Shown here: positions 1-29,993 of the stretch, piece after piece
How positions within the stretch are numbered: position 1 is the stretch's first letter
Layout of the letters: the number at the start of each line of letters is the position of its first letter
Assembly (NCBI GenBank): GCA_035591015.1
Contig: JAXIUW010000008.1
Coordinates: 1 to 64,000 of the forward strand
DNA from: Cephalothrix simula
Lineage: Eukaryota; Nemertea; Palaeonemertea; Archinemertea; Cephalotrichidae
DNA: 64,000 nt
Reading direction: 5' to 3'
The notes under the pieces: generated by a model
The model's input: only the letters and a program-made list of their open reading frames with translations
Databases searched by the model: none
What the model was told of the DNA's origin: nothing
Made by a program: the position numbers and the translations under genes

Positions 1-340
1 ATACGCCCTTACGGGCTTATCCAGCCCCAGAGAACTATTATGGGGTTGCACGGGTATATTTATCCCCTTGCTGGGATTGTTAAGGGCAAAGCCCTTAACG
101 TTGCCAATTTCATACTTAACCTTGCTTAGTCTAACCTAGCAAAGCAATTCTCTATTGCTTTGCCGGGGCAGAGCCCCTAACATCAGCCACTTCGGCGCAT
201 TCTCTTTCTTTCACGATCAAGCCCTAACACTTTTTCAGATAACCTTGTATTGTGTGCTAGGGGCTTGGGGCAATTCCCAAATAGAGAAACCTATTGGCCA
301 GAGAGAGTAGTTTCTATTTATTGAGTTAGGCCTCAACCTT
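1..340. repeat. Hairpin-module repeat block A (cut by the window start)
   Basis: Non-coding block just beyond the 3' end of hflC, made of short inverted repeats shared with the blocks at 6760-7442 and 10030-10790. Visible hairpins: 48-71 (imperfect 10-bp stem, loop ATTT), 79-99 (GTTAAGGGC / GCCCTTAAC, loop AAA), 139-163 (TCTCT-loop hairpin) and 165-177 (GGGGC / GCCCC, loop AGA). The first bases look like the right part of the GCATAAG-type hairpin seen whole at 6997-7020, so the element probably continues to the left of the window. No plausible reading frame is seen. Shared parts include TAACATCAGCCACTT, which matches TAACACTAGCCACTT in the block near 10.6 kb. Confidence 0.8.
139..163 (+). repeat. 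TCTCT-loop hairpin, copy 1
   Basis: Left arm GCAAAGCAAT, loop TCTCT, right arm ATTGCTTTGC: a perfect 10-bp stem. Compared with the 10606-10630 copy, position 5 of the left arm is A instead of G and the partner in the right arm changes from C to T, so pairing is kept. Confidence 0.85.
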
Positions 341-347
341 GACAGTC

Positions 348-1199
348 TTAGCGGACTGATTTTTCTATGTATTCAAACAGTGGCGATGATGCAGAGAGAA
401 TCATCTGTGTGTCTTCATCAAGGGCTTCACGGTAAACGGCCAGACTGCGTACAAAGGCGTAAAATTCTGGGTCATCTTTGAGCACGTTGGTGATTATATC
501 AGTCGATTCAGCATCGCCTTCACCACGGATTTGCTGGCTTTTATTTGTGGCCGAGGCAATGATTATATCACGTTGCTTTTCAGCATCACCTTTAATTTTG
601 AGCTCTTCTCCAGAACCTTCAGAGCGAAAACGTTTACTGATCCGCAATCGTTCAGCACGCATTCTATCATGAATGCTTTCGGCTATTTCTCGTGGAAAGT
701 CAGTGCGTTTGATGCGTACATCAACTACTTCAATGCCAAACTCTTGGGCGCGTTTCTTAACGTCTGTTTCAACCTCATCCATAATCACTACTCGTTTGCC
801 GGTGATGATATCGCTTTGATTATGCGATGCTACGGCTTCTCTAAGCGATGACGATATAATCGCATCTAGCCTGGCATCAGCACGCTGCATAGAGCGCATA
901 GATTGAAAGAACACGAGGGGGTTTCTGATGTAAAAACGTGCATAGGCATCAACCACTAGTGCTTTTTTGTCGAGAGTCAAAAACTCAGCTGGTGGGGCGT
1001 CATAGCGCATAAGCCGCTTATCGTAGCGGACTATTTCTTGAATAAAAGGAGTTTTGAAGTGTAGGCCGGCATCTTTAACCGAGCGCACATACTTACCAAA
1101 CTGAATGATGATTACCTGCTGCGTTTCATCAACAGTGAATATTGAATTGGCTCCGGCGATAATACCCAGAGCAACGATTATTGATAGAAAAATTTTCAT
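348..1199 (-). CDS. hflC: HflC-like SPFH/band-7 membrane protease modulator
   Basis: 283 residues with one N-terminal membrane anchor (residues about 3-20) followed by an SPFH/band-7 domain that begins near FTVDETQQVIIIQFGK and a helical region rich in charged residues ending around residue 230. HflC pairs with HflK in a large periplasm-facing complex that surrounds and restrains the FtsH protease in the inner membrane. The length is usual for the family (E. coli HflC is somewhat longer). The start overlaps the hflK stop by 4 bp (ATGA), so the two are translationally coupled. hflX and hfq, common neighbours elsewhere, are not seen; the 3' side runs straight into repeat block A. FtsH itself is not in the window. 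Confidence 0.93.
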   Translation of the reverse strand: MKIFLSIIVALGIIAGANSIFTVDETQQVIIIQFGKYVRSVKDAGLHFKTPFIQEIVRYDKRLMRYDAPPAEFLTLDKKALVVDAYARFYIRNPLVFFQSMRSMQRADARLDAIISSSLREAVASHNQSDIITGKRVVIMDEVETDVKKRAQEFGIEVVDVRIKRTDFPREIAESIHDRMRAERLRISKRFRSEGSGEELKIKGDAEKQRDIIIASATNKSQQIRGEGDAESTDIITNVLKDDPEFYAFVRSLAVYREALDEDTQMILSASSPLFEYIEKSVR

Positions 1200-2260
1200 G
1201 GTGTAGTGACTTTGCCTCCGTCAGGTTGCATATGAATTAGTGGCAGAGAGCCATTAGCGAGGTCTCCTGAAACCACGGTTTTATTTTTTATTTTAGATAA
1301 AATATCTTCCATGGCTTCTAGATAAAGGCGCTGCCGAGTGATCGACTTGGATTTTTCATAAGATTCCAAAAGTTTCTTAAAGCGTCCAGCCTCACCCTTG
1401 GCGGTTTCTATTTGGGTTACTTTATAGGCTTCAGCATCAAGAATCATCTTATCGGCCGTACCAAGTGCTTTAGGCAATAAGTCTTCGCGATAGGCCAGAG
1501 CCTCGTTGATAATACGTTCACGGTCTTCTTTTGCAGACACCACGTCTTTGAAGGCGGCATCAACCTCATCGGGCGGGTATACGTCTTGTAGCTTAACGGC
1601 GACTATCTGCAAACCGGTTTTATATTGGTCTAAAAGCTCTTGCAATTCAATTAGCGATTCTTGTTGAATGTAGGCACGACCAGTAGTTAGCACGTCATCA
1701 ATGTTCATTGTGCCGATTACTCCACGAATAATGGTCTCGGCTGCGTCATGCAGAGTTTGCCCTTCAGGAGTTCCGCTAGGATCCCAAACCTTGAATAAAT
1801 AATCGGTGATGTTAGATATTCTATACTGAATTATGGCGTGAATATTGACCAGATTTTCATCACCAGTAATTATTAATGACTCAGCATCAACTGAGCGCAC
1901 AGACTGGCCAGATGAGAGATCACTACTACGGAAGCCAAGCTGCATACTGCGAATTTGTCGATCTTTGACGATATCTATCTTCTCAATAGGCCATGGAATA
2001 ACATAGTAAATGCCTGCGGTCATGGTGCGGCCCATCTTGCCGAAGCGACGCACTACTGCCGTTTCATCTGGGTCAACAATAACAATGCCTGAGGCCAGCC
2101 ACGCCAGTAAAATCGCAGCGCCAATCACTAGAGCTATAAACAAACCGCCCGGGGTTTTTCCGCCCGAAAACCGAGATAGCTTATCTTTAATAAACTTTAT
2201 CACCGGATCAAGGTCATTTTTATTTTGATTTCCCCACGGTGAAGAATTTGGATTTTGCAT
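1196..2260 (-). CDS. hflK: HflK-like SPFH/band-7 membrane protease modulator
   Basis: About 354 residues from the ATG at 2260; an upstream in-frame ATG at 2311 would add 17 residues of no family resemblance, whereas MQNPNSSPWGNQNKND looks like the Asn/Gly/Pro-rich start typical of HflK. A proline/glycine-rich cytoplasmic head is followed by one membrane span (LFIALVIGAAILLAWLASG), the band-7 domain (DPDETAVVRRFGKMGRTMTAG) and a long helical part. It partners HflC in the FtsH-regulating complex. No clear Shine-Dalgarno sequence precedes either start. A Fur-box-like sequence lies about 225 bp upstream (2486-2504). The annotation is firm from the hflK-hflC pair; only the start is open. Confidence 0.92.
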   Translation of the reverse strand: MQNPNSSPWGNQNKNDLDPVIKFIKDKLSRFSGGKTPGGLFIALVIGAAILLAWLASGIVIVDPDETAVVRRFGKMGRTMTAGIYYVIPWPIEKIDIVKDRQIRSMQLGFRSSDLSSGQSVRSVDAESLIITGDENLVNIHAIIQYRISNITDYLFKVWDPSGTPEGQTLHDAAETIIRGVIGTMNIDDVLTTGRAYIQQESLIELQELLDQYKTGLQIVAVKLQDVYPPDEVDAAFKDVVSAKEDRERIINEALAYREDLLPKALGTADKMILDAEAYKVTQIETAKGEAGRFKKLLESYEKSKSITRQRLYLEAMEDILSKIKNKTVVSGDLANGSLPLIHMQPDGGKVTTP

Positions 2261-2311
2261 GAATAATCTACTATCTATGTACAACAAGTTAATGCTAAAA
2301 GCATAACCCAT

Positions 2312-2966
2312 CCTAAGCGAAATATAAACTAAACTAATTGTAATATACCGCCCTTCTTAAAATAGTAGCGGTTCAATGATAGCTAATCAAGTGTAACTAA
2401 CGGCTTTATGGAACAAAAATTGCTTAAGCAATAAGTTAGAACAGTATTGGCTTAGTATAGTTTGCGAAATATATTTGGCTTAGGTGCTAATGATAAGGAT
2501 TATCCTAAGAAGACGCTAACGGTGCGCCGTAGACGTCATCGGCACTGCCAGCATCGCTAAGTTTATGGCAAGACCATTTTTGTAGATTAATCAAGGATGA
2601 TTGCCTCGTAGCAATTTGATTATTTAGGCTTTTTTAGCCGATTCGTTAGCCAGTAGAATGGCAGATTATGCTGTTTACAATTTAGTTGCATAAACAAGCT
2701 GTGCGCATAGATGCTTAAAGTTTTGCGCTACGTATAAGATTATTGTGCAGAAGATTTGTTGCTCAGAATAGACACAAAAAGTACTGACTGATGAAAATAT
2801 TCAGCACAATGGCTAGTAAGAAATATTTTTGGCATAATATTAAGCATAATAAATTTAAGCATAATATTTTTAATTAAATGTGTTATTGCGTCATAAAAGT
2901 GATATAATGTTGAATGAAGTTGGTATTTGGAAACATGAATTGGTAGCGAGGCAATAGGATTTTACT
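2312..2966. other. Gene-free divergent interval between hflK and a lipoprotein gene
   Basis: 655 bp separating two divergently read genes, so it should carry promoters for both. The clearest element is the Fur-box-like palindrome at 2486-2504. The last 200 bp are very AT-rich (repeated ATAATATT-like strings around 2820-2880). A 41-codon open frame on the minus strand ending near 2507 has no start codon and is not called. No tRNA or hairpin-block modules are seen. Confidence 0.6.
2486..2504. promoter_or_regulatory. Fur-box-like palindrome
   Basis: GCTAATGATAAGGATTATC matches the classical 19-bp Fur consensus (GATAATGATAATCATTATC) at 16 of 19 positions and contains the palindrome GATAA-GGA-TTATC. 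It sits in the divergent interval, about 225 bp before hflK and 460 bp before the lipoprotein gene. The match is visible; that it binds Fur, and which gene it would control, is inference. Confidence 0.4.
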
Positions 2967-3632
2967 GTGAATAAATTAACGACTATCTTAATTTTGGCTG
3001 TTTTATTTTTTGCTGGTTGCGAAGTTAATAACGGAGCTTCAGAATTGATCTCGGGAAATATCAACGGAAAAATTATTAAAGGTAAAATAATGTTTCCGTA
3101 TGTAGGCGATCAGCGTTCAATGAGTATTATCATTAGTGGCGTCAAGTATGCTACGCACCCCGATGGGCGTTTTTTAGTTAAGAATATGCCCAATGGTGAG
3201 CATGAATTGATAGTTGAAGAGAATGGCTATAAAAGTCTGCGCCTTAGATTTGTAGTTGGGGCAGATGATAGTCAGCGAACAGAATCCATAATTGATTTAG
3301 GAACATTAGTACTAGAAGATGCTCGAGGTAGCATTGGTGGGGTGCTAAGGCTTGATGGCTATGGCCCAGTGCCTAAAGTAGAACTAAAGCTAGGCGAACG
3401 CATCATAAAAACAAACGACCAAGGCGAGTTTATGTTTGTGGGCTTGGATGATGGCCAATACACTGTGCGAGTTAGCGATAATCGCTACTTTACTCATGCC
3501 ATAGAGGTTAAAATTAACGATGACAAGCCCGTTGATTTAGGTGTTGTGAGCATCTATCCACGCAAACGCAAACTAATCAAAAAGCAGTATTTATCAGCGA
3601 AAGAAGAAATCGCTTCTCCTAATGCAAATTAA
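2967..3632 (+). CDS. Lipoprotein with two carboxypeptidase-regulatory-like beta domains
   Basis: 221 residues. The GTG start at 2967 has AGGA about 8 nt upstream and gives a lipoprotein signal peptide ending in the lipobox LFFAGC (Cys about residue 18). Two tandem beta-sandwich-like segments follow: about residues 32-100 (HPDGRFLVKNMPNGEHELIV) and about 120-190 (NDQGEFMFVGLDDGQYTVRV). The pattern D-G-x-F-x-x-x-x-L-x-x-G-x-Y is that of CarboxypepD_reg/Cna-B-like modules, often found in surface or transport-linked proteins. The tail is lysine/arginine-rich. No enzyme motif is seen. Probably anchored in the outer membrane or periplasmic face; the specific role is unknown. Confidence 0.7.
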   Translation: MNKLTTILILAVLFFAGCEVNNGASELISGNINGKIIKGKIMFPYVGDQRSMSIIISGVKYATHPDGRFLVKNMPNGEHELIVEENGYKSLRLRFVVGADDSQRTESIIDLGTLVLEDARGSIGGVLRLDGYGPVPKVELKLGERIIKTNDQGEFMFVGLDDGQYTVRVSDNRYFTHAIEVKINDDKPVDLGVVSIYPRKRKLIKKQYLSAKEEIASPNAN

Positions 3633-3678
3633 GTTATCTAGTCAATCACTAGGTAAATTATTACTATGGTTCGTCCCG

Positions 3679-3764
3679 TGGCTTAGGTTTTGTGGCCTTT
3701 CTGGCTTAGCTCAGCAAGCCCTAAATCAGCATGGTCTAAAAGGCCATCGCCATAAACCTAGCCA
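3679..3764 (+). promoter_or_regulatory. Folded leader just upstream of nnr
   Basis: Nested inverted repeats occupy the 86 nt ending 8 nt before the nnr start. Outer arms TGGCTTAGGTTT (3679-3690) and AAACCTAGCCA (3754-3764) pair with one bulge. Next, GGCCTTT (3694-3700) pairs with AAAGGCC (3739-3745), and an inner hairpin GGCTT/AAGCC occupies 3703-3720. It has no T-run and so is not an ordinary intrinsic terminator. It could be an RNA structure over the nnr translation start or a remnant of a mobile palindrome. Confidence 0.4.
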
Positions 3765-3772
3765 AGCATCAA

Positions 3773-5374
3773 ATGGCTAGTAGTTATAAAAGTAATCCGC
3801 ATTATAATCTGTGTAGTAATCCGTATAGTAATCCATACAATAATAAACAAGATGGCTGTGTTCAGCCTCTAGCCACAGCAGAGCTACTGCCCGTTATTGG
3901 TAAAACGGCAATGTATCGCCTTGAGCAGGGCTGGGTAGAACGCCAAGAGGTTGGCTTTGCTGAACTAATGCAGCGTGCCGCAGAGCAGATTAGTTTGGTT
4001 GTGCTAAGGCAATTGGCCGGCGCAAAGCCTTCACCCAAAATAGTTATTTGTTGTGGAGCGGGCAATAACGGCGGTGATGGCTACTTAACAGCAATCAAGC
4101 TCCGTCAATACGGGCTGAATGTTACCGTGATTGAGGTACTTAGCCCACATTCTCAATTAGCAATTACTTACCACCGTAAATGGCAAAAAACAGGCTGTTT
4201 AATCAATTATCAGCGCAATCCAGCGTTGGCCTCAGCAACCATTAAGGGTGCCACTATAATCATTGATGCCATTTTTGGCATAGGGCTATCACGCCAACTA
4301 GAACAGAATATTATCCGCTTGATTAGACTTATCAATGTCGCACCGGCATTGAAATTGTGCATTGATATTCCATCAGGAATGGATGCCGATAGCGGCAATA
4401 ATTATGGCGCAGTAGTTGATTCTACAATTACCGTGTGTTTCCAGTTAATTAAGGTAGGCGTGGCTTTGCGCTGTACTGGTCAAATGATTTGCGTGCCGAT
4501 ACATTCTGCGGCTGACTATGTTCCGCAACAATTCATGCTTACTCAAGCAGCAGCGAAAAGGCTTTTGCCACAGCGCCGTCATGATGCTCATAAGGGCAGT
4601 TTTGGTCATGCTTTGATTATTGGTGGGTCGACTCAAATGCCTGGAGCAGTAGCCTTGGCGGGGCGAGCCGCTTTGCGTAGTGGCGTGGGCTTGCTTAGTG
4701 TAGCCATGCCACGTCAAGCAGATCAAAGTCTGTTGCCGGCTGAAATAATGCGCTTAATATCAACTAAGGGCAGTGCAGATTATTTTTCTGTTGAGCAAAT
4801 TCCAAATCTTAGCGTTTATCAAGCACTAGGATTAGGCTGTGGTGTGGGTCGTAATCAGGCTACAGCTGAGTTTGTTGCTGCTATTTTGCAACGGTGCCGA
4901 GTGCCTTTAGTATTAGATGCTGACGGCATTAATCTAGTTACTAAGGCGCAGCTTAAAGAGTGCCAGCAGCCATTGATTATAACACCGCATCCGGGTGAAC
5001 TAGGCCGACTTTGTGGCGTTTCTAGCTTTGAAATTGAGCAAGATCGGGTGCGTTGGGCGCAAGAGACAGCCATAGAATTAGGCGTACATCTTATTCTAAA
5101 AGGCTTACGAACTCTGATTGCTACGCCTACAAATCTCTACATCAATACTAGCGGTGACGAAGGATTAGCCACCGGGGGCAGCGGTGATGTGCTAACCGGA
5201 CTATTGACGGGCTTGCTGGCGCAGGGAATGGGGTTAACTGAAGCCTGCCTACTGGGCGTTTATCTGCATGGATTAGCACGAACAATTCAGCCTCAAATCA
5301 GCTCTTTCGCCTTTACCGCCTCAGATGCTATTAATGGAATAGATAAAGCCTTCAAGGCATTAAGCTCTACATAG
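3773..5374 (+). CDS. nnr: Bifunctional NAD(P)H-hydrate epimerase / ADP-dependent (S)-NAD(P)H-hydrate dehydratase
   Basis: 533 residues with the fused two-domain layout of bacterial Nnr. The N-terminal YjeF_N epimerase domain (about residues 40-245) has CCGAGNNGGDGYLTA and a DAIFGIGLSR motif. The C-terminal ribokinase-like YjeF_C dehydratase domain (about 265-525) has HKGSFGHALIIGGS, the ITPHPGELGRL motif and GSGDVLTGLLTGLLAQG near the end. The enzyme repairs damaged NADH/NADPH hydrates. The first 37 residues are a non-family extension containing repeated S-N-P-x-Y; no in-frame ATG lies closer to the conserved part, so this start is kept, though a rarer start codon further in is possible. tsaE, a common neighbour, is absent. 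Confidence 0.93.
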   Translation: MASSYKSNPHYNLCSNPYSNPYNNKQDGCVQPLATAELLPVIGKTAMYRLEQGWVERQEVGFAELMQRAAEQISLVVLRQLAGAKPSPKIVICCGAGNNGGDGYLTAIKLRQYGLNVTVIEVLSPHSQLAITYHRKWQKTGCLINYQRNPALASATIKGATIIIDAIFGIGLSRQLEQNIIRLIRLINVAPALKLCIDIPSGMDADSGNNYGAVVDSTITVCFQLIKVGVALRCTGQMICVPIHSAADYVPQQFMLTQAAAKRLLPQRRHDAHKGSFGHALIIGGSTQMPGAVALAGRAALRSGVGLLSVAMPRQADQSLLPAEIMRLISTKGSADYFSVEQIPNLSVYQALGLGCGVGRNQATAEFVAAILQRCRVPLVLDADGINLVTKAQLKECQQPLIITPHPGELGRLCGVSSFEIEQDRVRWAQETAIELGVHLILKGLRTLIATPTNLYINTSGDEGLATGGSGDVLTGLLTGLLAQGMGLTEACLLGVYLHGLARTIQPQISSFAFTASDAINGIDKAFKALSST

Positions 5375-5451
5375 TGCTTTGTTGTGTGTCTTCAACAGAG
5401 CAAACAAGCTGGCCATAGCTTGGTGCAGAAAAAGTTCTGCTCGGCTTTAAG

Positions 5452-6159
5452 TTAATCCTGCTGGGTTGTTTTGCCAGTGATGGAACGAAGCAATTTAGTT
5501 GTTGCCGAGACATCAGCAATACTTTGCAGTATGTCGGCCTCAACGCTTAGTAAGCTCAATTTCCGATTGTTAGCGGTCGGGATTGAGTAGCGATCATCAG
5601 AGCCAGAGAGGATGAAGCAGTTGTCTAATCCCTTTAATTCTACGTTCCAGTTCCGCATAGCTTTAATCATGTGCGGGCTGCCAGAAGGCAATTCAGATTG
5701 CTCCGTAAGAGCGCAATCACCGTTTAATTGCTTAGGTTCAAGCTCAATGCGGTCTAAGTAGCTATTCAGCATTTCTGCTGATGGAATGTTAGCCAAAATC
5801 AGATTATGGATTCTCTGCGGATAAAGCTGCTTTAAGCGGATACCCACCAATGCTCCTAGCGAAAATCCAAAAAAGTTCAAATAGCGAATCTGCAGTTGTT
5901 CTATCAGCTCTTCCATATCACGGGCTAAGGCATCAATGCTAAAATCAGCTACATCTTCAATGTTGTCGCTGCGCCCGTGTCCACGAGCATTAACAGCAAT
6001 CAAGCGATGATCCTGGCTTAGATTATCTACATAGCCCCAATCAATCCAATCTTGAGCACTGCCAAATAGGCCATGATGCAGCATCAGCATAGAGCCTTTC
6101 TGGCCATAAAGCTCAAAGTGTATACAGTGTTTTTCGTTAACTATTACGGTCATGCTCAT
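5452..6159 (-). CDS. Alpha/beta-hydrolase fold protein without a visible catalytic histidine
   Basis: 235 residues of alpha/beta-hydrolase fold: oxyanion region HHGLFGSAQDW (about residues 28-38), NARGHGRSD (57-65) and the nucleophile elbow GFSLG with Ser100. A candidate acid is in GSDDRY near residue 188. The protein ends about 45 residues later with no His after the PHM near residue 165, so the usual C-terminal catalytic His is not visible. It may be a non-enzymatic or truncated relative of YbfF/MenH-type esterases. Start may be Met1 or Met3. It is convergent with nnr and divergent from the lptE-like gene. Substrate unknown. Confidence 0.75.
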   Translation of the reverse strand: MSMTVIVNEKHCIHFELYGQKGSMLMLHHGLFGSAQDWIDWGYVDNLSQDHRLIAVNARGHGRSDNIEDVADFSIDALARDMEELIEQLQIRYLNFFGFSLGALVGIRLKQLYPQRIHNLILANIPSAEMLNSYLDRIELEPKQLNGDCALTEQSELPSGSPHMIKAMRNWNVELKGLDNCFILSGSDDRYSIPTANNRKLSLLSVEADILQSIADVSATTKLLRSITGKTTQQD

Positions 6160-6202
6160 TTATCGCTATAATTCAGTGGATGATGTCATCACGAAGTAGA
6201 TA

Positions 6203-6730
6203 ATGCAAATACTATTAAAAAAACTTTCTTCCAACACAATCAAAACAACCATCAGCATACAGGCCATGGTGTTGATTTTATTGCTACAAGGTTGCGGATA
6301 TCAAGATGAGATAAGCCTGATAAGAGGCGGACATCAACGGTTTTACATTGCAAAATTTCAAAATAAAACCTCCGTAACACAGCTTGATATATTCTATCAA
6401 CGAGCCTTAATCAACCTCGCTACCGGCTGGACCAGCGTGGGCATCCTACCCCAACAAGACGGCTTGCCGGGGCTTTCTGTAGTCATTAAATCGGCTAAAA
6501 TACAGCGCAATAGCCCTAGTTCAGGGCTAAATTTAATCAGTCTCAATAGCACCGTTGAGGTAAAATTTGGCTATACTGATGCCACCGCCATACTCAACAC
6601 CACAATAGCTGCCACCGCAAATTTTTGGGAAGAAGGCAACTTTTTAGAAACTAACAGCTTGTTGGATCGCCTTTACTCACTAGCCGCCGCCGACTTCGCT
6701 CAAAAACTAGAACAGGCACTGTTTGAATAA
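6203..6730 (+). CDS. lptE: LptE-like outer-membrane lipoprotein
   Basis: 175 residues. The signal peptide ends at LLLQGCGY (Cys about residue 31), and the CGY after the lipobox is typical of LptE. The following FYIAKFQNKT and DIFYQRALINL fit the LptE (lipopolysaccharide-assembly) pattern of a short strand, an N-K/R-T turn and a long helix. LptE plugs the LptD barrel and helps deliver LPS to the outer leaflet, consistent with Kdo synthesis genes at 32-35 kb. It stands alone here, not next to leuS or holA as in enterics. Sequence similarity in this family is low, so the call rests on pattern and size. Confidence 0.62.
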   Translation: MQILLKKLSSNTIKTTISIQAMVLILLLQGCGYQDEISLIRGGHQRFYIAKFQNKTSVTQLDIFYQRALINLATGWTSVGILPQQDGLPGLSVVIKSAKIQRNSPSSGLNLISLNSTVEVKFGYTDATAILNTTIAATANFWEEGNFLETNSLLDRLYSLAAADFAQKLEQALFE

Positions 6731-6772
6731 AAAAACACAAACTAAGCTATATTTATTTGGGGCTCTCGTCCA

Positions 6773-6797
6773 GCTAGATGCTAGAGAATCATCTTAC
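6773..6797 (-). repeat. TCTCT-loop hairpin, degenerate copy
   Basis: Read on the minus strand: left arm GTAAGATGAT, loop TCTCT, right arm AGCATCTAGC. Seven of ten pairs are kept. It is 81 bp from the next copy at 6854, the same period as between the two copies of block C. Confidence 0.6.
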
Positions 6798-6853
6798 TCG
6801 GTTAATGTAAGCAAAGTTAAGTTTGAAGTTTAGGTGGTTAAGGGCTTTGCCCA

Positions 6854-6878
6854 GCAAGGCAATATAGAACTGCCTTGC
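6854..6878 (-). repeat. TCTCT-type hairpin, reverse copy
   Basis: Read on the minus strand: left arm GCAAGGCAGT, loop TCTAT, right arm ATTGCCTTGC. Ten pairs including one G-T. Confidence 0.8.
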
Positions 6879-6918
6879 TCGGTTAATGTAAGCAAGGTGA
6901 TTTGGTAAAGTGGTTAGT

Positions 6919-6939
6919 GTTAGGGGTGCCACCCCTAAC
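6919..6939. repeat. GTTAGGGG-type hairpin
   Basis: Arms GTTAGGGGTG and CACCCCTAAC around a single C: a perfect 10-bp stem. Related hairpins with different but still pairing stems are at 79-99, 7303-7324, 10545-10565 and 10632-10644. Confidence 0.8.
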
Positions 6940-6946
6940 GACCCCG

Positions 6947-6970
6947 GCAAGGGGATAAATATCCCCTTGC
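6947..6970. repeat. GCAAGGGGAT hairpin with AAAT loop
   Basis: Arms GCAAGGGGAT and ATCCCCTTGC, loop AAAT, perfect 10-bp stem. An imperfect reverse-oriented relative is at 48-71 (loop ATTT). Confidence 0.75.
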
Positions 6971-6996
6971 AACCCCATGATGTGTTCTTTGATGCG

Positions 6997-7020
6997 GCAT
7001 AAGTCCTCACGGGCTTATGC
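6997..7020. repeat. GCATAAG hairpin with TCAC loop
   Basis: Arms GCATAAGTCC and GGGCTTATGC, loop TCAC, ten pairs with one G-T. The window's first 20 bases contain what looks like a truncated copy with loop TTAC, and 10321-10340 contains a decayed one. Confidence 0.7.
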
Positions 7021-7169
7021 GCTTGAGCTAAATAAACCACATCACGCCACACGCAAGGCACAACGCTTTTTGAATAAGAGCCAGATTAGATGCTTAAGAA
7101 AACCTTTTTGCCCTAAGTAGGGCATAAGGCAATGCTTGATTATGTTAGGTCATATAATACCAAGCCCTT

Positions 7170-7197
7170 TTGGCCGAAGGCATATGCCTTCGGCCAA
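7170..7197. repeat. 28-bp perfect palindrome
   Basis: Arm TTGGCCGAAGGC, centre ATAT, arm GCCTTCGGCCAA, palindromic throughout. The copy at 10479-10506 keeps both 12-nt arms but has centre GTGA. The upstream context AAGCCCTTT and downstream context GTCT are also shared. Confidence 0.88.
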
Positions 7198-7207
7198 GTC
7201 TGGGGAA

Positions 7208-7230
7208 GCAGGGGTATGGCATACCCCTGC
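7208..7230. repeat. 23-bp inverted repeat following the palindrome
   Basis: Arms GCAGGGGTATG and CATACCCCTGC around one G. At the equivalent place in block C (10514-10533) the arms are GGTGCA/TGCACC: different sequence, same ability to pair. Confidence 0.8.
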
Positions 7231-7363
7231 ACGGTTATAAAATCTTGCTGCTGTGTGACTGTATTTGCTTTGATTTGGATAGTAAAGCCCTCTGCCGGGG
7301 TTGTTAGGGATGGCACCCCCTAACACCAGCTATTTTGGCAAATAACCTTGCTTTAACGGCCGG

Positions 7364-7388
7364 GCAAGATGATTCTCTATCATCTTGC
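7364..7388 (+). repeat. TCTCT-loop hairpin with covarying stem
   Basis: Left arm GCAAGATGAT, loop TCTCT, right arm ATCATCTTGC: a perfect 10-bp stem. Relative to the 10606 copy, three stem positions (6 to 8 of the left arm) differ and all three partners in the right arm changed to match. Confidence 0.87.
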
Positions 7389-7442
7389 TGGGGCAGTTTC
7401 CTCAAATATAAGCCATAGTTGGGATTGTTAGGGGCGGTGCTT

Positions 7443-8207
7443 CTACTTTTGGTTGGCATCTATGGTGGGTCTTAACCATAGTCCAAAGAATTCTTGATTA
7501 AGGCTTTTTTTTCCACGGATTTGGCTGGGTTCAACGCCGAGGAATTGAAGAGCGTATTCGTTGGCTACTTTGCATACTGATTGAATGGCTTGTTGGTGTA
7601 CTTTGGGGTCAGTGATGCGTCCGCCGCTTTCTACGGCATCTCGGCTGGCTTCAAACTGGGGTTTGATTAGGGCGAGGATTAGTCCATCTTTGGCCAGCAG
7701 ACTAACTGCTTGAGGTATGATATGCCGCAGAGATATAAATGAAACATCTATGGTGATTAGGTCTATGGGTTGGCCAATATCATTTGGGTTAACAGAACGG
7801 AAATTGGTACGCTCCATCACCTTAACACGTTGGTCTTGGCGCAAACTCCAATCTAGCTGGCCGTGTCCAACATCAATAGCGAAAACTTGTTTAGCACCGC
7901 CATTTAGCAAGCACTGCGTAAATCCGCCGGTTGAGCTGCCAACATCCACACAGGTTAGATCTTGAGGATTAAGATTAAAGTGGCGCAGAGCTCCTTCTAG
8001 TTTAAGGCCACCACGACTGACGTAGTTATGGTCGTGGCCACTAAGCTCAATCAATCCATCATCGGTTACCATATGCCCGGCTTTGGCGATAACTTTTCCA
8101 TTCACCGAAACCTTGCCAGCCATAATGTAGCTTTGGGCTCGTTCACGGCTGGGGGCTAGTTTGCGATTGACCAGCAGGCGATCAAGGCGCAGGCGATGCT
8201 TAGCCAT
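7443..8207 (-). CDS. tlyA: TlyA-family rRNA 2'-O-methyltransferase (S4 + FtsJ-like domains)
   Basis: 254 residues, the usual TlyA length. The N-terminal S4 RNA-binding domain (about residues 1-60: RLDRLLVNRKLAPSRERAQ) is joined by SRGGLKLEGAL to a Rossmann methyltransferase domain with the SAM motif DVGSSTGGFTQCLL and DVGHGQLDW. Relatives methylate ribose 2'-OH groups in 16S and 23S rRNA (known for mycobacterial TlyA, where loss gives capreomycin resistance). Some members were reported as haemolysins; the methyltransferase role is the better-founded one. The gene starts 3 bp after the rseP stop, so it is probably co-transcribed with rseP. The repeat element abuts its stop codon. Confidence 0.92.
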   Translation of the reverse strand: MAKHRLRLDRLLVNRKLAPSRERAQSYIMAGKVSVNGKVIAKAGHMVTDDGLIELSGHDHNYVSRGGLKLEGALRHFNLNPQDLTCVDVGSSTGGFTQCLLNGGAKQVFAIDVGHGQLDWSLRQDQRVKVMERTNFRSVNPNDIGQPIDLITIDVSFISLRHIIPQAVSLLAKDGLILALIKPQFEASRDAVESGGRITDPKVHQQAIQSVCKVANEYALQFLGVEPSQIRGKKSLNQEFFGLWLRPTIDANQK

Positions 8208-8210
8208 TGG

Positions 8211-9491
8211 CTAGATAAGTTGGCTAAGGTCGTTGATGGTAACGAAGATCATCAAGCCCAGCAACAAAAATACCCCTGTTGATTGCAAGGCTATCCGAAC
8301 CTTAACCGATAGCGGTTTCTTTAAGAACAGCTCTGGCACTGACAAGGCTAAATGACCACCATCAAGCGGAGGGATAGGTAGCAAATTAAAAATGCCGAGC
8401 TGCAAGCTAATAAAAGCAGTTATGGCTAGTAGATAGCGCAGTCCGCTTTGGGCAGCATCGCCAATGGTAGCACCAATTCTAATGGGGCCGCCAAGATTAT
8501 CAATAGATGCATTACCGGTAATCAGCTTATAGAGATAACTAAAAGTTATTGTGGTTAGCTCGCCAAGGTGCGTAATGCCCTTATACACTGCGGTAAGGGG
8601 GGTATTACTAACAATTTCGGTGGGAATTTGCACTCCAATTAACCAGCGTTGAGTATCTTCATTATACTGCGGAGTTATAGTTGTGTAGAACTGTTCATTG
8701 CGTCTGATGGCCACAACTTCAGCTGCATTTCCATCTAAATTATTCACAATTTCAGGAAGCTCAAGCCAATTATTTATCGGCTGACCAGCAATGCTCACTA
8801 TTCTATCACCAACCTCTAGTCCGGCATCCTTAGCAGGAGATGTAGCAGGAAAATCTCCAATAATTGTCTCAATATAAGGGTTTATGCCCAATTCATCCAA
8901 GCTAAGACTGCTCTGGACTGGAACGTTGAGGTTAAGAGCTTGATTATTACGAACAATACTTAAAGATAGTTCTGAATTATCACTGATGGATTGCTCGTAG
9001 GCCGTTCGCCAGTCATCTATCTGGGTATCGTTGATAGCCGATATTAGATCTCCAGCCTTAAGGCCAGAGCGTTCAGCAGCAGAATCTGGGGTTATAGAAC
9101 CAATGATGGCCGGCTCTAGCTGATACTTGCTGACTGGACTGCCCATCATATGGAAGATGCTCATAAGCACAGCGGCCAGCAGAATGTTCGCCAGCGGACC
9201 CATAACAAGAATAAATGCACGTTGGGCAAATGATTTTGATGCGTAGTTGTTCTTTTGGCTTGGATTTTCTTCATCATAGCTTTGACCATACAGCTTTACA
9301 TAGCCGCCAATAGGCAATAGCGACAGCATGTATTCTGTTTCACCAATTTTTTTACTGATAAGACGTGGCGGAAAGCCCACCGAAAACTTGTCTACACGAA
9401 CACCGACTTTGCGTGCCGCCCAAAAATGTCCTAATTCATGAATAAACACCAAAAAGGTTATTACCAGCAAGAAAATTAATATTGTCATCAC
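8211..9491 (-). CDS. rseP: RseP/site-2 intramembrane zinc metalloprotease
   Basis: 426 residues. The first membrane segment carries HELGH (His18, Glu19, His22), and the third zinc ligand motif NLLPIPPLDGGHL has Asp377. Two PDZ domains lie between them: about residues 125-200 (SAAERSGLKAGDLISAI) and 215-290 (SPAKDAGLEVGDRIVSI). RseP-type proteases cut anti-sigma factors and leftover signal peptides within the inner membrane. The usual neighbours cdsA and dxr lie upstream on the same strand but 1.33 kb of repeats separates them; bamA, often next, is replaced by tlyA. No Shine-Dalgarno sequence is obvious; the start could be Met1 or Met2. Confidence 0.95.
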   Translation of the reverse strand: MMTILIFLLVITFLVFIHELGHFWAARKVGVRVDKFSVGFPPRLISKKIGETEYMLSLLPIGGYVKLYGQSYDEENPSQKNNYASKSFAQRAFILVMGPLANILLAAVLMSIFHMMGSPVSKYQLEPAIIGSITPDSAAERSGLKAGDLISAINDTQIDDWRTAYEQSISDNSELSLSIVRNNQALNLNVPVQSSLSLDELGINPYIETIIGDFPATSPAKDAGLEVGDRIVSIAGQPINNWLELPEIVNNLDGNAAEVVAIRRNEQFYTTITPQYNEDTQRWLIGVQIPTEIVSNTPLTAVYKGITHLGELTTITFSYLYKLITGNASIDNLGGPIRIGATIGDAAQSGLRYLLAITAFISLQLGIFNLLPIPPLDGGHLALSVPELFLKKPLSVKVRIALQSTGVFLLLGLMIFVTINDLSQLI

Positions 9492-10029
9492 TAGCCTCAG
9501 CTATTTTTAGTTGAGTTATTTCTGTTTGAAGTATGACCGCCTCAAGGCTGGCCAATATTTGCCCCAATCCAAAGTCTACCTAAAGACATTTGTAACTAGT
9601 TAAGAATAACATATAAAAGAGAGTGCGAACACAAGGCTTCATGAGGTGGGCGGTCTTGGTTAGCCTGCCAAGCAATAAGCCTAGATAAAGCCCTTATCGG
9701 GTGGCTGGCTTTTGTCTTGCCGAGGTGATAACCACCGAATAGAAGCCCTGTTGGGCAAGTGGCTCTTGTTTAGCTGAGGTGCTAATCCGAAGTAAAACTC
9801 CTTCCGAGATAGATGTTTCTTGTTCGTTCTGCCGAAGCAGTGAACCCAGATAAAGTACTTTCCGAGAGAGGAGTCTTATCTTGTTTTACCGAAAGAGCCT
9901 CCTTACAGTTAAAGAAACTCACTGTCATCGGCAGTGAGGCTTCGTGATATGGGCTGCTGCGCTCCCCACACCCCTAGCAACGGTGCTTATTCTATGCCTT
10001 TAGATATAGTCAAAAGATGACTTTATTTT
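9492..10029. other. Gene-free left part of the rseP-dxr interval
   Basis: It holds the 5' region of rseP, a degenerate tandem repeat (9645-9900) and a hairpin CTCACTG/CAGTGAG (9918-9924 with 9932-9938). No reading frame of interest was found on either strand. The rest of the interval is block C. Confidence 0.6.
9645..9900. repeat. Degenerate tandem repeat, 53-58 bp period
   Basis: About five units start near 9647, 9701, 9759, 9811 and 9870. Common parts are GTGGCT(C)TTGT near the start, CTGCCGAGGTG in the middle and AGATAAAGCCCTTTCCGAG near the end, each with substitutions. The unit differs from the hairpin modules on either side. No coding frame runs through it. Confidence 0.68.
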
Positions 10030-10090
10030 TAGGGGCGTCATTCAGCATGGTCATTTTTTCTATTTTGTATGGGGTTAAGAGCTATGCTCG

Positions 10091-10115
10091 GCAATGCTAT
10101 AGAGAATAGCCCTGC
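10091..10115 (-). repeat. TCTCT-loop hairpin, reverse copy in block C
   Basis: Read on the minus strand: left arm GCAGGGCTAT, loop TCTCT, right arm ATAGCATTGC. Eight or nine of ten positions pair, counting one possible G-T. Confidence 0.65.
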
Positions 10116-10478
10116 TCGGTTGTAAAAGCAAGGCCTTAACAGTTCAGTCTATTTTTTACTTTATGGGAGCTTCGCTCCCAGCTGTTGTCCGATGCAGAGG
10201 CGTTGACAATTAATAAATTATTTCTGCTAACTAATGCTTCCAGTTTGAATCCGATGGGCAAAGGTTAAGGTTTGTTGACTGGCTATGGTATGTTCTGCTG
10301 TAGTTCTCTTATCTCCTAAAACTTCATGAGCTTATGCCTCCACATTAAATAAGCCAGACCACGGTCATACGAAAGGTGAAACGCTTTTGAATAATAGCTA
10401 GCCTCCCAAACCTCTTTCAGTCTAAATGTAATACATTGCAATACCTGACTAAGTTAAGTTGCATAATACTAAGCCCTT

Positions 10479-10506
10479 TTGGCCGAAGGCGTGAGCCTTC
10501 GGCCAA
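10479..10506. repeat. Palindrome copy 2 (12-bp arms, loop GTGA)
   Basis: Arms TTGGCCGAAGGC and GCCTTCGGCCAA, identical to the arms at 7170-7197; only the four central bases differ. Confidence 0.88.
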
Positions 10507-10605
10507 GTCTGAGGGTGCAGGGAGCTGTGCACCGGCCCGGGGTCGTTAGGGGCAGAGCCCCTGACACTAGCCACTTTGTCAAATAACCTTGCTTTTCACG
10601 ACCGG

Positions 10606-10630
10606 GCAAGGCAATTCTCTATTGCCTTGC
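10606..10630 (+). repeat. TCTCT-loop hairpin, reference copy
   Basis: Left arm GCAAGGCAAT, loop TCTCT, right arm ATTGCCTTGC: a perfect 10-bp stem. The next copy begins exactly 82 bp later. Confidence 0.88.
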
Positions 10631-10687
10631 TGGGGTGGAACCCCTAACACTAGCCACTTTGGCGCATCACCTCTCTTCCACAATCGG

Positions 10688-10712
10688 GCAAGGCAATTCT
10701 CTATCGCCTTGC
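10688..10712 (+). repeat. TCTCT-loop hairpin, one mismatch
   Basis: Left arm GCAAGGCAAT, loop TCTCT, right arm ATCGCCTTGC; nine of ten pairs. 82 bp after the 10606 copy. Confidence 0.82.
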
Positions 10713-10822
10713 TAGACAAAGTCCTTAACTAACTAAATCACAAAGTAAATTTTGCTTAGATTATATAGAGCAAAGCCCTCTGACGCTAGCTGCTTTAGTG
10801 CATGCCTTTGCTTGAGTATTTG

Positions 10823-12028
10823 TTATTGATTATGCGCTATGTCTTGGATTACGGCTGAGGCACTTTGACGCCCCCACTGATTAGCGGTTAGTGCGTCTTT
10901 GATGGTGTTTATGGCCATAAAGCCGGCTTCGTGTTGGCGATGCTTGAGGTAGCTTTGGATTACTGCATTGAGTATAGAGTGAAAATGATAGAACGAAAAT
11001 TGCCCATCTAGGTAGGCCTCTACGGCCATCTCATTGGCACCATTAAAGATTGCTTGTGCGGTTTGGCCATGCCTTAAAACTCCCTCAGCGAGGTAAAAAC
11101 AGGGGAATAACTGTTGAGAGATGGGTTCAAAGGTCAATTGGCTAAGTCTATCAAAATCAAGGTTAAATCTTGCTTGTGGCTGTTGTTGAGGGTAGTTTAG
11201 GCACCAGCTGATAGGAATGCGCATATCCGGTGTGGCAATATGGGCAAGGCAGTTACCATCGGCGAATTCAACTAGGGCATGAATTACTGATTGGCGATGT
11301 ATCATCGCTTTAAGTTGCTGTGGTTCAATATCAAATAGCCAACGGGCTTCAATAAGTTCTATTCCTTTATTGACCATGGTTGCCGAATCAATGGTGTTTT
11401 TGGGACCCATGCTCCAATTGGGGTGCTGTAAGGCCTCATCAATGCTAACTTTTTCTAGCTGTTGAGGAGTATAGTCGCGGAAAGGGCCACCTGATGCGGT
11501 TAAGACAACTTGTTTAATGGGGCGTAGATTTTGGCCTAAGCCTTGTTCTAGGCATTGACGCAGACCGTTATGCTCGCTGTCAATGGGCAATATGATGCTC
11601 TGATGCTGACGGGCGAGCTTCATCAATAATTCGCCGGCAAGGACAAGGGTTTCTTTATTGGCAATAGAAACCGTTTTAGAGCATTGAATAGCAGCCGATA
11701 CGGCTTCAAGCCCAGCATGGCCGTCCATAGCTGCTAGAACATGTTTAGATTGCTTTGCTCGTGCTATCTCAAGTAGGCCTTGAGCGCCGTGTAAAATGTT
11801 AGTTGAGCAGTGTTGAGGCAGGTTGGCAGATAGCTCTTGGGCAGCCTCAGCGCTGTACATAACCGCAATCTGAGGTTTGAAACGCTTGATTTGTTTAAGC
11901 ATTTCGGCAACATTGCTTTTTGCAGCTAGGGCATAAACGCCAATAGAGGGGCAGTCTTCGGCAATTACATCAAGCACATTCTTGCCGACTGAGCCTGTTG
12001 AACCAAGCAGGGTAATACTATGTTGCAC
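10823..12028 (-). CDS. dxr: 1-deoxy-D-xylulose 5-phosphate reductoisomerase
   Basis: 401 residues, the normal length. The NADPH-binding start is ITLLGSTGSVGKNVLDVI; the substrate and metal region includes IDSEHNGLRQCLEQG (Asp/Glu metal ligands), LTASGGPFRDY, HPNWSMGPKNTIDSATMVNKGIELIEARWLFDI and an A-N-E-M-A-V-E-A motif near residue 335. The enzyme makes MEP from DXP, the committed step of non-mevalonate isoprenoid synthesis; dxs lies at 37.3 kb in the same window. It begins 3 bp after the cdsA stop, so the two share a transcript. Downstream, the repeat block separates it from rseP. Confidence 0.96.
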   Translation of the reverse strand: MQHSITLLGSTGSVGKNVLDVIAEDCPSIGVYALAAKSNVAEMLKQIKRFKPQIAVMYSAEAAQELSANLPQHCSTNILHGAQGLLEIARAKQSKHVLAAMDGHAGLEAVSAAIQCSKTVSIANKETLVLAGELLMKLARQHQSIILPIDSEHNGLRQCLEQGLGQNLRPIKQVVLTASGGPFRDYTPQQLEKVSIDEALQHPNWSMGPKNTIDSATMVNKGIELIEARWLFDIEPQQLKAMIHRQSVIHALVEFADGNCLAHIATPDMRIPISWCLNYPQQQPQARFNLDFDRLSQLTFEPISQQLFPCFYLAEGVLRHGQTAQAIFNGANEMAVEAYLDGQFSFYHFHSILNAVIQSYLKHRQHEAGFMAINTIKDALTANQWGRQSASAVIQDIAHNQ

Positions 12029-13461: not shown

Positions 13462-16400
13462 ATGCCTGAGTTAGGATTAGAGATACTTAAGGTTGTAGAT
13501 AACAAAAAAAGGCGCCGCAGTTTCTTTGAGGCTGAAACGGTTATCTCAGAATACAACGCTTCACCGCGTCCGGCGGGAATAATGAAGCCTCTTGTCATTG
13601 AGTCAGCCATGTCTATGGCCAGTATCAATGAGAAAATTAGAGCGTTATCGGCACTTAGCCCCGATGATTATGTCAAAAGAACGGTAATGCCGTCTGAAGA
13701 CCCTCGGCGGCGTAGTGCCTGCGATATTATCGCTGAGATGTCATGCCGTGTGGTAGATGCCATATCTAAGGGCCCGCTTTATATTGCCGAGGTTGAGTTT
13801 GATGCCGATGATAAGCCTTGGCGAGCGGTTATTTTAGCGCAGAACAGATCTGTTCAAAATGGGGTGTGGATGCCCGAACATCATCGTTTAGCGAGCAAGT
13901 GGATTACCCACTTTGTGGGTCATAAAATGCCCATCATCACTTTTATTGATACTCCGGGGGCTGATGCTGGCGAAGTCGCTAATATGGGCAATCAAGCGCA
14001 TAGCATCTCTGAATTGATAATGACGATGGGTAATGCCCACGTGCCGAGCGTGGGTATAATTTTGGGTAATGGTTATTCAGGCGGAGCTATTCCCCTAGCA
14101 ACAACTAATATACTGTTGTCGGTGCGTGATGCGGTGTTTAATACCATTCATCCGCAGGCATTAAGCGAGATAGTGCATCGTTATAATTTGTCGTGGCAAG
14201 AGTGCGCTCGTTATGTGGGTATATCGGCCTATGAGCTGTGCAAGCGAGGCATTGTAGATGCCGTAATTGATTACTCGCCGGTTGAGCGAGGTTCAATAGC
14301 CAAGCTAGAGCAGGCCATTGTTGAAACCTTGGTTGGACTAGAAAATAGAGCGGCCAACTTTTTACGCGAGCCAGATAATGATTATTTGTTTCTTGACTAT
14401 GTGCATAGCCTCAGAAACGTGCTGAATCCCACTGATTTACTGATTGATGCCGGCCGAAAAGAGGGGCGACATCTGTGGGCGGTGGGCAATGTTGTGGGGT
14501 CTGTGTTCCGTTATCATCGCTATCTTAATTTAAGAAGACGCCTTAATAGTACGTCATTAGCCAGAATTTCAAGGCTGTCTAAGGTTGATATTCCTGAAGG
14601 TGGCTTGGCAGACCGTCGTCGGCGTGAGCGTGAAGAACGCTTTAAGAGCTGGTTAGATAATCCGCTAGAAATTCGTTATGACACCGAGTTACTAAAAGGC
14701 ACGAAACGCTTGATAGATACTCGCAACGCCATTAACTCAGAGCGCAAGTCTATTACGTCAATTTTCTTAATGTCGCCAGAGAAGCGCATGAAGAAGACGG
14801 CACGTTTGTTGACAATGCAGGTTGGGCTATACCTTTATAATTTTTGGAAAAGCGATGCCAGAGCCAACTTTGTGCAGCTGCTCAGGTATATAGAGCAGCA
14901 ACCCGTTCAGCAAAAAATCAACATTGAGTCGGCTAGTATTATTGATGTTTTGCTGCTGCCAGAAATACGCCAACGCTTTAGTGGCCAAGTTTTGAACTTT
15001 GTTTTGTTTGATCTTATCTATGACCATCTTATTGCCAACATGCACTTTATTGCTGCCGAGCTTAAAGAAAATAATGAGATATCATACTCATCAATGAAGA
15101 GCTTGCTAGAGCATGTGGTTGATAAAGCCGATGAGCATTATCGTGGTAATGAAGATGATAACGTAGACCTTTCAGAAAGCTGGGAAAAGTTTTTTCAATG
15201 GTTAGAGACCCTATTGAAGCATCGTGATATTAAGCAGATTATGCGCCAAATTGGGGGCTGGAAGCGGCTTGCTCATCCACGCATCAGCGAACCTTTATTT
15301 GGATTAATAACTTGCTACTTCACAGACTTACTGCCTTCTTATTATGACTCGCAGGCTGATAGTAAAAACTTTAAGGGCAAAATAAATCCCTCAAACATTG
15401 GTATTAAAGATTTTTGGAATCGCCTTGCCCAAACCTATTCTGACCTACTCATTTACAACCTGATCACCGATTATAAACGCAAAAAAACCATTACTCCACA
15501 AGATGTTATCGGAGAAGTTTTTGAAGACTTCAAAGAAATTGATCCAGACATTGTAACCGCAGATCCATTGCGCTTTCCCGGTTATCGCAGTTCAATTGAG
15601 CGCGCTCTAAAAAACAATATTCGCCCCGTTGGAGTGATAACAGGCTTTGCTACGTTTAAGTTTGGTCGGCGCAAGAACAGAGTTGGGGTGATGGTTAGTA
15701 ACTCTGGTTTTCAGTCTGGTGCCTTTGATATGGCCAGTGGAGTAAAGCTATGCCGATTGTTGCTAGAATGTGCCAATGCTGGCCTGCCCTTGGTGATGTT
15801 TACTTCATCGGGGGGTATGCAAACCAAAGAAGGGCCGGGGGCGTTGTTCTCAATGGCGGTAATCAATACACGCATCACTAGATTTATCAGAGATTTTGAC
15901 CTGCCTATAATATCTTTTGGTTTCCGTGATTGCACCGGCGGTAGTCAGGCTAGTTTTGTAACGCATCCGATGGTCAAGAGTTTTTATCTATCGGGAAGTC
16001 TAATACCCTTTGCAGGTCAGCGAGTTGTGCCGAATTACTTGCCAATGCAGTCTATTTTAGCCAATTATCTCTCTGAAAATGATGGCAGCATGGACGGCTT
16101 GGTTAAGAACCCCTTTGACCGTGGCCTAGATAAAAAACTCTGCGAAATAGACCCCAGCATACCTATTCCGAGCAAAAGCATCAGTCAGGCCATCGCCGAA
16201 GTGTTGGCTGGTGGCTACAAACCATCGGTCAGTCAAGTCAAGCGCAAGCCGTTGTTTAGAGGCGAAGAGATGAAGCTCAAGCCGATTAACAGAGTTTTGA
16301 TTCATTCACGTGGAGCGACTGCCGCACGTATTATTCAGGCTGCTCAAGCTATGGGTAAGCAGGTTATCTTGGTGCAATCTGATGCAGATATGACTAGTTA

Positions 16401-29656: not shown

Positions 29657-29993
29657 TGCACCATACAATGCTCTATGCATTGCTATACACATAGTAGCAT
29701 TACACATAATAAGTTTACACATCGCTCGGCGGCAACACGCACAGCAGCTAGCAGAAAGCATCATAGAAATTGATGCTGTAGCCTGCTGATAAAAGTTAGT
29801 TAGCAGTCTTTCATTAATTTACTAAAAAGTACCTGTGGCTAGGCGTCTAACAGTCCAGCCCCCCAAAGAACCTAGCCAAAAAACTCAACCTAAAACTGCA
29901 AGCAGTTTTGGGTCGGCGGAGTTTATGCTTGAGCTAACAGCCCAATCCAAAAACTTATCCAAAAAAAGTACAGCCAAAAAACTTATCCACGAG
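29657..29993. other. Convergent intergenic interval with two inverted repeats
   Basis: 337 bp between the 3' ends of the histidine phosphatase gene and apgM. TGGCTAGG (29836-29843) pairs with CCTAGCCA (29871-29878). AAAACTGC (29892-29899) pairs with GCAGTTTT (29902-29909), which ends in a short T-run on either strand and could be a weak bidirectional terminator. A direct repeat AAAACTTATCCA occurs twice near 29950-29990. Confidence 0.5.
29892..29909. terminator. Possible bidirectional terminator hairpin
   Basis: An 8-bp perfect hairpin with loop AA between two convergent genes; the arms themselves supply four T residues on each strand, but no longer U-tract follows. The position supports the idea more than the sequence does. 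Confidence 0.3.

Follow-up and report, generated by a model that had tools for sequence, protein, structure and literature searches.

A mosaic repeat with interchangeable hairpin stem types in a putative SAR324-lineage chromosome

Introduction

Matched changes in the two arms of a stem are commonly accepted as proof of a functional RNA fold. Seven hairpins at the start of contig JAXIUW010000008.1 (C2 in our numbering; assembly GCA_035591015.1, 8.6 Mb in 580 contigs, deposited as the nemertean Cephalothrix simula) raise the question of whether such changes can also arise by copying of DNA. The window analyzed here is the first 64,000 nucleotides of that contig. A sequence-only reading of it had noticed that the hairpins keep the loop TCTCT while their 10-bp stems differ, and had taken this as the hallmark of selection on a folded structure, with a mobile palindrome among the options for its meaning. 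We found that the seven hairpins are all copies of a single module, hairpin B. It belongs to a modular, non-coding repeat that is dispersed in what appears to be the chromosome of a SAR324-lineage bacterium. The explanation that we favor, and to which we give about an even chance of being right, is that this is a non-autonomous mosaic repeat, resembling BOX and bacterial interspersed mosaic elements (BIMEs), whose hairpin cassettes pass from slot to slot by copying of DNA.

Hairpin B is a module of a dispersed repeat

All seven 25-mers are present where they had been reported (Table 1), on both strands and within composite blocks. With the copies at 6773, 6854 and 10091 taken in minus-strand orientation, six have the loop TCTCT and the one at 6854 has TCTAT. 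The two arms match exactly in three of the seven; the claim that they do so throughout was overstated, as the other four carry one to three mismatches. Several stem types do differ by matched changes, as had been described, and the earlier list lacked a further type, GCAGGGCTAT, to which the copy at 10091 can be assigned.

Many further copies were found in the assembly. A strict pattern, GCAANNNNATTCTCTATNNNNTTGC, has 77 copies (42 on the plus and 35 on the minus strand) and a looser one, GCNNNNNNATTCTCTATNNNNNNGC, has 113, with no match to the reversal of either; the loop-free pattern GCAAG-15N-CTTGC occurs at 86 places compared to 3 for its reversed form. These counts rule out a chance origin of the hairpins. 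Hairpin B is on at least 21 contigs (from the strict matches and the 100 of 113 looser ones that were listed), and 19 of these contigs have a copy no more than 700 bp from one of their ends, as would be expected if arrays of this kind break an assembly. The window has 15 perfect inverted repeats with arms of at least 8 and loops of 3-9 nt, and 11 of them fall inside the three blocks of repeats in its first 10.8 kb. We fetched additional stretches of the assembly that were chosen for holding B, so that densities in them are not genome-wide. In these stretches, 122 of 124 copies lie outside open reading frames (ORFs) of at least 150 aa. With mechanically called ORFs of at least 90 aa, 25 of 125 copies are inside one, and we took the overlapping ORFs of 90-150 aa to be spurious. 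At one B-like match in the window, at 29755, there is nothing that resembles the repeat, and it was discarded.

Hairpin B is the last part of a unit of ~84 bp that begins with hairpin A (consensus GTTARGGGY-nnn-RCCCYTAAC) and continues through a linker of about 40 nt. Units recur in tandem every 80-90 bp, and one to several of them stand at each end of a composite repeat, in opposite orientation, forming terminal inverted repeats. The order of the parts is reversed unit(s), slot D, hairpin H, a middle part, hairpin C, slot E and forward unit(s). The hairpins other than B have loops of about 2-4 nt. A profile of the core, with 331 columns, was run against the window and the fetched stretches and gave 59 matches at E ≤ 1e-14; often these covered only the left or only the right half, and at least one was a palindromic reverse match. 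No gene was found inside the composite repeat, which has therefore probably spread in trans.

Stems come in a few discrete types that switch in place

Classed by the left arm, 113 of 126 B copies belong to six stem types. In 109 copies each arm is no more than one base away from a type, and in 100 of these the left and the right arm belong to a single type. There are seven exact arm hybrids, one of them clear: in L063 the left arm of one type is joined to the right arm of another that differs at three places. Each of the two commonest stem types was found with all three linker kinds. Among 38 unit pairs whose linkers are at least 90% identical (pairs that are not mutually independent), 6 differ at two or more places per arm with the loop unchanged. 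The two tandem units of L032, for example, have linkers that are 93% identical and B hairpins that differ at three pairs around the same loop.

In slots B, D and E the flanks are similar from copy to copy, and the hairpin between them is one of a small set with matched arms. Slot D, located by its flanks, contains three hairpins in 29 copies (the rows that were left after removal of 2 false and 6 overlapping ones): 17 of GCAAGGGGAT-AAAT, 10 of GCAGAGAG-CCAG and 2 of GCAGGGGC-TTTA. Modularity, dispersal, discrete stem types, switching in place and one clear hybrid are thus properties of this repeat family.

In 28 of the 29 slot D copies, the right-arm core of the hairpin (CCCC or CTCTC) is repeated in a third segment downstream, which changes with the hairpin type. 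Hairpin C, present at 17 places in the assembly, has six loop sequences in its 17 copies, the opposite of B; its stem was fixed by the search.

Stems of resident copies are kept no better than the loop

Selection for pairing at every site would make changes in the stem less frequent than those in the loop. B copies were located with a hidden Markov model of their upstream neighbors only, hairpin A and the linker. This gave 119 copies, of which 11 that were too distant and 7 hybrids were left out and 101 were analyzed. Most of these (76 of 101) are identical to one of the six types. Private changes from the type were counted at 12 of the 505 bases in loops and at 39 of the 2020 in stems (Fisher p 0.48), and the outcome was the same for the 36 copies that lie outside the seed pattern (12 of 180 loop bases, 34 of 720 stem bases, p 0.34). 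We saw no sign of site-by-site selection for pairing in the resident B copies. A loop-free scan found TCTCT in 116 of 122 copies, and the rest of each type is equally constant. Loops as variable as stems, which had been named as evidence against selection on the fold, were found for private changes within types and not between types.

The covariation itself is strong. There were 127 cells with matched changes in the alignment compared to a mean of 49.6 in shuffles, and none of 500 shuffles reached as high a count; the alignment was chosen by a pattern that fixes the loop and the outer pairs. With few discrete types, switching in place and stems that are kept no better than the loop, the reading of this covariation as selection on the fold is unsupported, and the mosaic of mobile palindromes that had been offered as one option is among the parts of the earlier account that gained support.

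Proposed copying of hairpin cassettes at the DNA level

We propose that the hairpin DNA is single-stranded at some stage, which might be the lagging strand, a cruciform or a transposition intermediate, and that it would then be copied or converted as a whole unit by template switching, by a putative hairpin-recognizing transposase, or by both. Copying of whole units would give matched arms and keep the loop, and the resident copy would decay afterwards. Either template switching or a single-strand transposase could produce both the matched hairpins and their constant loops. In the excerpts of PMC8794818 used here, template switching during replication can rewrite one arm as a copy of its partner and so give multi-base compensatory changes; those of PMC8266576 describe single-strand transposases that touch loops and irregularities of palindromes.

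Several observations weigh against copying as the explanation. The B copies were anchored with a profile whose seeds all carried TCTCT. Point mutation could account for six of the seven exact hybrids, in which only a single place differs. Stem type and linker are associated (odds ratio 8.4, p 6e-5), so exchange is only partial. Unpaired linkers are far more diverged than B, most pairs being near 50-70% identical, and selection on B would also account for linkers that diverge faster. Read on the outward strand with hairpin H left out, G.T mismatches exceed A.C mismatches both in cells (47 compared to 14) and in event classes (23 compared to 11, p 0.058). With H included, the counts are 74 and 45 cells and 33 and 24 event classes (p 0.29); the scan for H was noisy, with 111 places of which many are false. 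For hairpin B alone there are 8 event classes of G.T and 7 of A.C. An excess of G.T would be expected from folding of RNA or of one strand. Single-stranded DNA also tolerates G.T better than A.C, and therefore the excess cannot tell the two apart. A control for G.U in tRNAs had only 2 tRNAs to draw on, too few to be of use. Last, we found no empty site, target duplication or mobilizing gene, and we therefore infer mobility from dispersal.

A more specific form of the proposal is that single hairpins, 20-25 nt long, move as cassettes from one fixed slot of the mosaic repeat to another. An enzyme or a replication process would read the foot (GCA/TGC), in hairpin B the loop as well, and would replace the whole stem by another matched one. 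We offer this tentatively and regard it as rather unlikely. If true, cassette movement would be a bacterial hairpin exchange that yields covariation without selection on RNA, and if cassettes truly move, the exchange process becomes testable. The combination of strong-looking covariation with stems kept no better than the loop means that covariation tests on repeat families need a null model at the DNA level.

Alternative explanations

A structured RNA, or an element at the 3' end of mRNAs, could be made from these units, with selection on the fold giving the matched changes. We consider this unlikely. It would account for the excess of covariation over shuffles, though the alignment was selected in a way that fixes the loop and outer pairs, and for the G.T excess on the outward strand, though the event classes for B alone show no wobble asymmetry. 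The region 10436-10715 folds strongly as RNA (z -5.0), but it folds equally well for its composition as DNA (z -5.7). The gaps that hold B are convergent in 9 cases, co-directional in 7 and divergent in 2, compared to 9, 29 and 10 in the window, as would suit a 3'-end element (both flanking ORFs at least 150 aa; convergent compared to divergent, p 0.12). Stem changes that are no rarer than loop changes and the copies on both strands speak against such an RNA, as do the Rfam searches: in the window only a tRNA matched, and three repeat-bearing loci gave 6 matches at E up to 1, every one below the gathering score.

Quite unlikely, in our judgment, are repetitive extragenic palindromic (REP)-like hairpins moved by a single-strand transposase of the HUH (Y1) kind that reads the loop and foot and not the middle of the stem. 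Such an enzyme predicts a constant loop and foot (GCA...TGC) around a free but paired middle, as the B types show, and in some TnpAREP enzymes certain loop positions are intolerant of change (excerpts of PMC8266576). However, Y1_Tnp (PF01797) had no matches in the assembly, which is possibly incomplete, in a search whose control was positive in 5 of 14 genomes, and B is preceded mostly by GGGT or CCG(A/G/T) rather than GTAG. The enzyme may have been lost, or may lie in sequence missing from the assembly. The TnpB zinc-ribbon domain was not found in the assembly either.

It is very improbable that B is the site of a site-specific recombinase, with an asymmetric core of 5 bp between inverted arms of 10 bp. 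The arm-core-arm layout, the identical sites that bound tandem units and the clear hybrid in L063 would fit such a site. The left and right flanks of B stay associated (odds ratio 18, p 3e-8), so they are not freely exchanged at the core, and the shorter loops of the other hairpins of the same repeats also argue against it.

Three further candidates were rejected. In a clustered regularly interspaced short palindromic repeat (CRISPR) array the spacers are unrelated sequences, whereas what stands between successive B copies here is a linker, homologous from unit to unit, together with hairpin A. What follows B is in most cases (T/C)GGG rather than the T run of an intrinsic terminator; there were 9 terminator-like sites over 6500-10900 compared to 4.5 (sd 1.9) in shuffles. 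An alternative helix between CTTGC of the linker and GCAAG of B does not track stem type (columns 48-75: CG 35 and CA 25 of 65).

Comparison with known repeats

By analogy, the repeat could be filed among bacterial interspersed mosaic repeats as a new variant. In layout, it resembles pneumococcal BOX (boxA-boxBn-boxC), which in the excerpts of PMC3049150 is a dispersed intergenic composite of stem-loop modules, with a tandem module of variable number and no gene of its own. It differs in sequence and lineage, which are unrelated by inspection, in having units inverted at both ends, that is, end rather than inner modules, and in swapping hairpin types within slots. REPs, BIMEs and REPINs (REP doublets forming hairpins), as the excerpts of PMC8266576 present them, share with it many small intergenic palindromes in both orientations and mosaic arrays. 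In contrast to them, our repeat has neither the GTAG foot usual in REPs nor a Y1 transposase found with it, and it is a ~600-bp composite with several hairpin kinds and several matched stem types around one loop. Yeast mitochondrial GC clusters and sponge mitochondrial repetitive hairpin elements (RHEs) are likewise mobile-looking hairpin families that merge and shuffle (excerpts of PMC4478555 and PMC2800124). In those families loops vary and stems are kept (in GC42, 367 changes at 12 loop sites compared to 174 at 30 other sites, from the same excerpts), whereas in B the loop is constant and the stem types differ. Bacterial miniature inverted-repeat transposable elements (MITEs) are also non-coding and highly folded, with inverted ends (excerpts of PMC3049150); neither a target-site duplication nor a parent transposon was found for our repeat.

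A pattern for the two main stem types had no match in a collection of 84,980 species with a single genome per species, or in a collection of viral contigs; near relatives may be absent from both. Plasmids and phages had no match either. No description of this hairpin family turned up among the listed titles and abstract starts of the open-access literature. The repeat family documented here is a large mosaic of hairpins in a bacterial lineage that is little known.

Genomic context and host

The seven hairpins fall in three intergenic blocks. Block 1-347 lies past the 3' end of hflC, block 6731-7442 is flanked by convergent genes of which the second is tlyA, and block 9492-10822 has dxr on one side and rseP on the other. 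Genes next to the hairpin repeats are ordinary: 9 of 10 proteins tested had a Pfam family, and none was a transposase.

Table 1. Positions in the window of hairpins and composite repeats.
Feature	Position	Strand	Remarks
Hairpin B, stem type GCAAAGCAAT, loop TCTCT	139..163	+	arms exact
Hairpin B, decayed GATG type, loop TCTCT	6773..6797	-	3 mismatches
Hairpin B, GGCA type, loop TCTAT	6854..6878	-	1 mismatch; unit 6851-6940, 84.9 bits
Hairpin B, type GCAAGATGAT	7364..7388	+	arms exact; unit 7302-7391, 79.2 bits
Hairpin B, decayed GCAGGGCTAT type	10091..10115	-	2 mismatches
Hairpin B, type GCAAGGCAAT	10606..10630	+	arms exact; unit 10544-10633, 95.2 bits
Hairpin B, GCAAGGCAAT type, second unit of tandem pair	10688..10712	+	one A.C mismatch; 82-bp period, 10558-10713
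Hairpin A (GTTAAGGGC-AAA-GCCCTTAAC)	79..99	+	
Hairpin A (GTTAGGGGT/ACCCCTAAC arms)	6919..6939	-	
Slot D hairpin (GCAAGGGGAT-AAAT-ATCCCCTTGC)	6947..6970	+	
Slot D with third segment, example	6947-6990		other examples: L038, L055, L052
Hairpin C (TTGGCCGAAGGC arms)	7170..7197	+	
Hairpin C	10479..10506	+	
Slot E hairpin (GCAGGGGTAT-GGC-ATACCCCTGC)	7208..7230	+	
Composite repeat	6770..7392	+	reversed units, core, forward unit
Composite repeat	10088..10715	+	B end in reverse orientation, match to core profile from 10318 onwards, two forward units; left part without such a match
Composite-repeat end, cut by contig end	1..166	-	core left end reversed, hairpin A, linker, B

The host of the repeat is, judging from protein matches, a SAR324-like bacterium. 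A fusion of AccA, AccD and AccC of 1520 aa is 56% identical to its top match and to the second, labelled SAR324 cluster bacterium. Dxr, which occurs once in the assembly, is 47% identical to its top match, and SAR324 is not named among the 80 Dxr matches listed from the genome collection. In eight genomes taken from the Dxr matches, the AccADC protein had fragmentary matches of 31-48% or less. There were 24 reverse-transcriptase matches in the assembly, five of them within ORFs of 1349-1576 aa (e.g. contigs C438, C171, C63, C480 and C48), which we take to be eukaryotic retrotransposon polyproteins. Because these long ORFs look like such polyproteins, the assembly is probably a mix of a eukaryote and the SAR324-lineage bacterium.

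The fusion gene, at 13462-18024 of the window, joins AccA, AccD, AccC and a biotin carrier part in a single acetyl-CoA carboxylase protein. A longer form of the repeat, with about 140-155 bp extra in the middle, was seen at L040, L045, L037 and L051; the extra part is edged by similar direct repeats, AAAAC.CTTTTG-like. A second, unrelated-looking repeat family adjoins the hairpin repeat at 9682-10060 of the window and at L032, L054, L055, L058 and L059, and in L032 a stretch that resembles this second family sits between two halves of the composite repeat.

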